Assembly (NCBI RefSeq): GCF_019457595.1
Contig: NZ_CP080419.1
Span: forward strand, 1,178,001-1,242,000
DNA length: 64,000 bases
Source of the DNA: Shewanella psychrotolerans
GTDB lineage: Bacteria; Pseudomonadota; Gammaproteobacteria; Enterobacterales; Shewanellaceae
Direction: 5' to 3'
Positions within the stretch are counted from its first letter, which is position 1; every line of letters begins with the position of its first letter. The notes under the pieces are model-generated. The model saw nothing but the letters and a program-made list of their open reading frames with translations, had not been told where the DNA came from and made no database searches. Shown here in pieces: positions 28,610-29,419 of this stretch. The position numbers were made by a program, and so were the translations under genes.

Positions 28610-28641
28610 GGCGTTCATCTTTGATGTGCGCCATTTTTTTT
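28610..28641 (+). terminator. Rho-independent terminator after oadB
   Basis: GGCG-TT-CATC pairs with GATG-TG-CGCC across TTT, with one internal mismatch pair, followed by ATTTTTTTT. Confidence 0.83.
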
Positions 28642-28705: not shown

Positions 28706-28750
28706 TTGATATAGATCAACAAGCCTCTATCGAAATTGGTGTCTTATAAG
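28706..28750 (+). promoter_or_regulatory. FNR/EtrA-type box and class II promoter for a small gene
   Basis: TTGATATAGATCAA (28706-28719) is a perfect match to the FNR half-sites TTGAT-N4-ATCAA. A -10-like TATAAG lies at 28745-28750. Transcription from about 28757 would put the box centre near -44, close to the -41.5 of FNR-activated class II promoters. The downstream gene is the 61-residue protein at 28815. This suggests oxygen- or respiration-linked control. Confidence 0.7.
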
Positions 28751-28814
28751 TGTGACCTATATCGCAATCACGATAAATTATTGCGTTAGCGCATACTAAG
28801 CAGAGGGCTTTACA

Positions 28815-29000
28815 ATGGAATTACTACCGAATTGTTATACCGATCTTTGTGTGAATGGTAAATGGTTTCATTACGACCATGGAGAAAGCTCTGTGTTTAT
28901 GCTTAATGGCAGTGAGCCTTTAACATTTGAATTGGAGCGTCAACCAGCAACAGAAGAGGAGTTAGAGCAGCGTCTTACTCAGATAGCGCAGCTGCTTTGA
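28815..29000 (+). CDS. Small protein of unknown function, probably anaerobically regulated
   Basis: This is a 61-residue acidic, soluble protein (MELLPNCYTDLCVNGKWFHYDHGESSVFMLNG, then a Glu-rich helix ending EELEQRLTQIAQLL). I do not recognise a family. Two cysteines (7 and 13), a His pair and Trp/Tyr residues lie in the first half. GCAGAGGG lies 8 nt before the ATG, and a perfect FNR box stands upstream, so it is probably a real gene. No function is assigned. Confidence 0.7.
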   Translation: MELLPNCYTDLCVNGKWFHYDHGESSVFMLNGSEPLTFELERQPATEEELEQRLTQIAQLL

Positions 29001-29080
29001 TAGGTGATTGAACTTTACTCTATCGATTATAAATCGTTGGCAAGGGCGACGATCTGTTTTATCCATCGTCGCCAATCAGT

Positions 29081-29419
29081 TTATTTACCGCAACATTTTT
29101 TGTATTTCTTGTCACTACCGCATGGGCATGGTTCGTTTCGCTGGGGTTGTTTTACAACCGTAGCGGTTTTAGGTCGATTTAAAATGCCTTCGAGTTGCAC
29201 AATATCTTCCTGAGCTTTTTCATTGATAACAATATCGGCAAACAATTGATGCTCAGTGACTATAGCCTCAACTTGATGCTTTCTGGTTTCATTGGGTACA
29301 ACCAGTTGTAATGGAAAAGCTTCGCTGCCTAGTTTCGTTGTGCGCTTAGTGTTGTAGCCATAACTCTCATGTTTTGGCTTAGGTGTCTTACGACCTTTAA
29401 AAAAGAACTTGTCTGACAT
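29081..29419 (-). CDS. SEC-C metal-binding motif protein
   Basis: This 112-residue protein ends in the SEC-C zinc motif NEPCPCGSDKKYKKCCG. The basic N-terminus (KFFFKGRKTPKPKHESYGYNTKRTTKLGSEAFPLQLVV) and a central helix match a small family of proteins built like this in Vibrio, Photobacterium and Shewanella. The role is unknown; SEC-C tails elsewhere bind zinc and contact SecB or ribosomes. It is convergent with the small gene at 28815, and a perfect 9-bp hairpin (29045-29073) lies in the gap. Confidence 0.85.
   Translation of the reverse strand: MSDKFFFKGRKTPKPKHESYGYNTKRTTKLGSEAFPLQLVVPNETRKHQVEAIVTEHQLFADIVINEKAQEDIVQLEGILNRPKTATVVKQPQRNEPCPCGSDKKYKKCCGK

Follow-up and report, generated by a model that had tools for sequence, protein, structure and literature searches.

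A conserved 61-residue protein gene behind a predicted class II FNR promoter in Shewanella psychrotolerans

The stretch of Shewanella psychrotolerans DNA analysed here (the window, 64 kb at its full length) carries a gene for a 61-residue protein whose family is undescribed in the libraries searched (Pfam, NCBIfam, PHROGs and PDB). We consider it very probable that this is a standalone gene for a small cytosolic protein, activated by FNR from a class II position, with a hairpin face that possibly binds a metal, a ligand or a partner. The original prediction had pointed to a possibly overlooked small protein; what was found is a conserved gene behind a conserved predicted class II FNR promoter, and from this promoter we infer that the protein would be produced anaerobically. 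The features of the locus are collected in Table 1.

Table 1. Features of the small-protein locus, in positions of the window
Feature	Positions	Strand	Basis or remark
Hairpin with T-run after oadB, separating oadB from the small-protein unit	28610..28640	+	seen directly in the sequence
FNR/EtrA box TTGATATAGATCAA, centre 28712.5, predicted class II (-41.5)	28706..28719	+	0-1 mismatch upstream of 85/89 distinct homologues
Predicted -10 element TCTTAT, 22 bp past the FNR box	28742..28747	+	spacing kept in homologues
Overlapping alternative -10 element TATAAG (the original choice)	28745-28750	+	would centre the box at -44.5
CRP/EtrA-like palindrome TGTGACCTATATCGCA over the predicted transcription start (~28754), possible second regulatory input	28751..28766	+	putative function
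Likely ribosome-binding site, AGGG in GCAGAGGGCTTTACA	28804..28807	+	read from the sequence
Gene of the conserved 61-residue small protein, ATG to TGA, stop included	28815..29000	+	homologues, invariant residues, dN/dS 0.055, confident fold
Inverted repeat GGCGACGAT...ATCGTCGCC, possible bidirectional terminator between convergent genes	29045..29073	.	fold -14.5 kcal/mol, z -2.7

The small gene and its homologues

The product of the frame, MELLPNCYTDLCVNGKWFHYDHGESSVFMLNGSEPLTFELERQPATEEELEQRLTQIAQLL, is an acidic protein of 7.1 kDa (computed pI 4.3) with two cysteines, C7 and C12, much as had been predicted, and is apparently soluble and cytosolic. It had been said to belong to no recognised family, and indeed neither the profile scans of Pfam, NCBIfam and PHROGs nor the PDB gave a relative above cut-off; a PDB sequence search returned a designed beta-propeller and other matches at chance level only. 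The protein was not found described in a literature search, a result to be read with the caveat that unnamed proteins are hard to look up.

The upstream neighbour of the unit formed by the box and the small gene is oadB, and the hairpin after oadB has an interrupted stem and was missed by a consensus scan. Downstream, the next gene (29081-29419, minus strand) encodes a SEC-C metal-binding motif protein of the PBPRA1643 family (TIGR04102, E 2.7e-49). This gene is convergent, and the 61-residue frame is therefore the only gene of its unit, as originally claimed. The inverted repeat between the two is only a putative terminator, because the plus strand has no long T-run there.

Shewanella, Vibrio, Photobacterium, Motilimonas and Paraferrimonas all gave homologues, as did records of Aeromonas caviae and Vibrio. 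The gene is carried by 53 of 129 Shewanella genomes and, at the level of the order, by 61 of 395 genomes and 9 of 115 genera. The order-level search was used because a class-wide genome sample (1 of 369 with the gene) lacked the carrier families. The searches made brought up no copy from S. oneidensis or E. coli. An alignment of 37 members has thirteen invariant positions: M1, C7, C12, G15, W17, H19, D21, H22, P44, T46, E47, E49 and L50. The reading frame, on whose conservation the original prediction depended, is a genuine gene under strong purifying selection across several families, with a median dN/dS of 0.055 over 48 usable homologue pairs and variation at 55 of 58 third codon positions versus 22 of 58 second positions.

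Two unusual arrangements were met among the copies. One genome has two copies about 2.3 kb apart (L021 and L023, G054:C7:194758-197262), the first with a perfect FNR box and the second without. The copy of Shewanella marina (L071:2983-3108, the same as L022) is shortened to 41 residues after the hairpin; it has lost the C-terminal helix and has kept a one-mismatch box.

Hcp is present in all 53 Shewanella carriers and absent from 14 of the 76 non-carriers (kinship ignored), a pattern that fits a link with anaerobic capacity and is not specific. Likewise, a phylogenetic profile against NiFe hydrogenase and Hcp gave an enrichment in genomes equipped for anaerobic life and little more, again with kinship ignored.

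The FNR box and the promoter

The box matches TTGATNNNNATCAA exactly, in agreement with the original prediction, and is the sole perfect match within the window. The expectation from shuffling was 0.13, and 13 of 100 window shuffles contained a perfect box, so that chance was still possible on the window alone and the match is suggestive, not decisive. The shuffles are also what speaks for a chance palindrome ahead of a spurious small frame, but this explanation is refuted by box and frame both being kept across families, and we give it next to no weight. Upstream of 60 of 89 distinct homologues, the pattern was matched without a mismatch; the best match had one mismatch in 25, two in 3 and three in 1. 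When these upstream stretches were dinucleotide-shuffled, the figures were 0.06% (0 mismatch) and 2.1% (1 mismatch). The count of 85 of 89 overstates the number of independent events because related species share ancestry, although the box is still kept across several families. In about four homologues, the stretch scanned holds no box with fewer than two mismatches. In one homologue (L005), a two-mismatch box, TTGACATAGATCAT, sits in the usual register, and the best-scoring match of that copy is probably not the functional box. A joint scan for box and start over the genus was too strict as a pattern, and some of its matches were at unrelated sites.

The genes flanking the unit are clade-specific, with oadGAB and the SEC-C gene in one Shewanella group and unrelated genes elsewhere, and none recurs convincingly between genera. 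The box is therefore not retained for the sake of a neighbour, and function is unreadable from context. Box and gene, whose joint conservation had been proposed as a check, were found to be kept together in differing genomic contexts. The SEC-C motif gene itself adjoins the small gene in that one Shewanella group only.

In the short-leader copies (n=41), a hexamer TAnnnT follows the box after exactly 22 bp (T 95%, A 78% and T 98% at positions 1, 2 and 6), which places the box at -41.5, in class II geometry. Of the activating FNR sites of E. coli with known start sites, 19 of 23 lie at -41.5 +/-4 (PMC3688515). The window box, too, would lie near -41.5 by the spacing to its predicted -10 element, with a predicted transcription start at about 28754. 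The original prediction had put it at about -44, behind TATAAG; this hexamer is present, but the conserved register favours TCTTAT, and we prefer to read the box as class II at -41.5. Both registers are within the activating range.

Leader length and sequence vary between clades: Vibrio-type copies have leaders of just some 30 nt, and those of Shewanella are long. The long-leader copies, mostly from Shewanella, have a GTGA-N6-TCAC palindrome 46 bp downstream of the box (GTGA in 38 of 46). The window element TGTGACCTATATCGCA resembles CRP sites and the predicted EtrA sites of strain MR-1, such as that of pckA, TGTGAGCTGGATCATT, a gene whose expression was raised in an etrA mutant (PMC3078092). 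A palindrome over the start suggests a second input in the Shewanella copies, and its position there is probably that of a repressing site. In one Shewanella clade, the leader begins with a hairpin whose arms change together (L034:2899-2956, GTGAACTAG/CTAGTTCAC; L004:1721-1778, GTGAGCTGG/CCAGCTCAC; L042:2895-2952, GTGAGCTTG/CAAGCTCAC). Across 19 sequences, paired changes in the hairpin were no higher than in shuffles.

Long leaders in Shewanella, and a leader hairpin in one clade, would be in keeping with the transcript itself being the main product, that is, an FNR-activated regulatory RNA (like FnrS) enclosing the small frame. We regard this as very improbable: the dN/dS of the frame and its third-position variation reveal selection on the protein, the leaders are unlike between clades and short in the Vibrio-type copies, and the hairpin covariation is not significant.

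As to the regulator, the HTH_Crp_2 matches of the genome include two full CRP/FNR proteins, Fnr (L142; NF008365, 484.6 bits against a cut-off of 228, with an N-terminal cysteine motif CHDC...C) and CRP (NF008732, 398.9 bits against a cut-off of 266). Over the whole genome there are 29 perfect FNR boxes versus 4 for a reversed control pattern, and 12 of the perfect boxes are intergenic by a simple ORF call. Several of those front, among others, ccoN, cydA, a hydrogenase small subunit gene, ompW and bfr; E. coli ompW is described as a member of the FNR regulon (PMC4886647). Given this complement of regulators and the boxes in front of such genes, FNR is the likely user of the small-gene box. Another possible explanation is that a different member of the CRP/FNR family mainly uses it (CRP in Shewanella; DNR or NnrR where present), in which case the signal would be cAMP or nitric oxide and not oxygen. 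DNR binds TTGATnnnnATCAA in pseudomonads (PMC1274295), the same motif as the FNR box, Dnr is present in some Shewanella (PMC3223726) and a CRP-like palindrome adjoins the box. However, Fnr and CRP are the sole full members of the family in this genome, the box is of the FNR type (TTGAT) and not of the CRP type (TGTGA), and the class II spacing is consistent with activation by FNR; we therefore consider the use by another regulator unlikely.

Two boxes elsewhere in the genome were noted. A perfect one, TTGATTTAGATCAA (gene's strand; L153:963-976, G000:C1:3192462-3192475), lies 19 bp before a bacterioferritin gene, where it would be well placed for repression. A fully palindromic one, TTGATCTAGATCAA, is found upstream of a gene for a small DUF454 (YbaN-like) membrane protein (L134:1501-2097, G000:C1:1838319).

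For the small gene, we favour activation by FNR. In anoxic cells, an FNR (EtrA) dimer would occupy the box at -41.5 and act on RNA polymerase as a class II activator, which would lead to synthesis of the 61-residue protein; in the Shewanella copies, the CRP/EtrA-like site over the transcription start probably adds a second, repressing input.

Predicted fold and possible role

AlphaFold models of the window protein and of a Vibrio-type member (mean pLDDT 93.4 and 92.6, respectively) have the same topology, a predicted four-stranded sheet (strands 8-13, 16-21, 26-30 and 36-39 in window numbering) followed by a C-terminal helix (47-60). A Foldseek search of the PDB with both models gave nothing at E < 0.001. 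Of the 37 members, one weakly matched the PqqD profile (E 0.088) and two weakly matched TIGR04353 (E 0.018), which raised the alternative of a degenerate PqqD/RRE-like peptide-binding domain, but such E-values are at chance level for 37 scans. The PqqD fold is a winged-helix arrangement, which the predicted four strands and one helix do not resemble, and there was no fold match in the PDB; we hold this relationship to be highly unlikely.

The conserved feature of the family is the entire Cys/His/Asp/Trp hairpin, beyond the two cysteines. From the strand boundaries and a turn at N14-G15, the cross-strand pairs would be 12-17, 10-19, 8-21 and 7-22. One face of this first beta-hairpin would then expose Tyr8, Asp10, Cys12, Trp17, His19 and Asp21, each of them invariant or almost so, with C7 opposite H22 at the open end. 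Such a face may serve in binding, be it of a metal, a ligand or a partner.

As C7, C12, H19 and H22 are all invariant, we also considered a plain C2H2 zinc finger. It was not adopted: by the predicted strand boundaries, C7 and C12 would lie on the two opposite sides of a single strand, which would suit a plain C2H2 zinc site poorly. The PDB fold searches gave no structural relative that would support a metal site.

No neighbour is conserved between genera, and the protein is therefore not a subunit of an adjacently encoded complex; a partner, if any, should be a widely held anaerobic component. Most likely, a metal ion, a thiol-reactive ligand or a partner enzyme would be bound through the hairpin face, and the protein would assist, as a small accessory factor, in some widespread anaerobic process. 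That binding should proceed by metal or thiol chemistry specifically is a tentative suggestion. It is conceivable, although we are rather doubtful, that this undescribed family represents a new small fold that is switched by FNR across families of aquatic Gammaproteobacteria, and that its hairpin lets it adjust anaerobic metabolism as a metal- or redox-dependent factor of a new type.

Comparison with known systems

FNR regulons are well mapped, yet here a gene linked to an FNR box across genera and genomic positions encodes a product without a described family or a solved relative. Many Vibrio, Aeromonas, Photobacterium and Shewanella have the gene, and a gene this short is easily missed; its small size, together with the lack of copies surfacing from S. 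oneidensis or E. coli, is perhaps why it had escaped earlier study. Small FNR-activated proteins of unknown function as such are already known, for example YdfZ of E. coli, which has a Pfam family of its own. The FNR site of YdfZ is likewise at -41.5 (PMC3688515), but its sequence has no detectable relation to the present family, of which 0 of 37 members match Pfam at E < 0.03. The class II FNR/EtrA promoters of Gammaproteobacteria, such as those of narG, dmsA and nirB, share the box and the -41.5 geometry predicted here; unlike them, the promoter described here has an undescribed 61-residue protein as its sole product, and the Shewanella copies add a palindrome at the transcription start. TorE and NapE (PMC6134056) are also small proteins serving anaerobic respiration in Shewanella and relatives, but they are membrane proteins tied to their cognate respiratory systems, whereas the protein of the window is acidic and apparently soluble, and its gene has no conserved neighbour.
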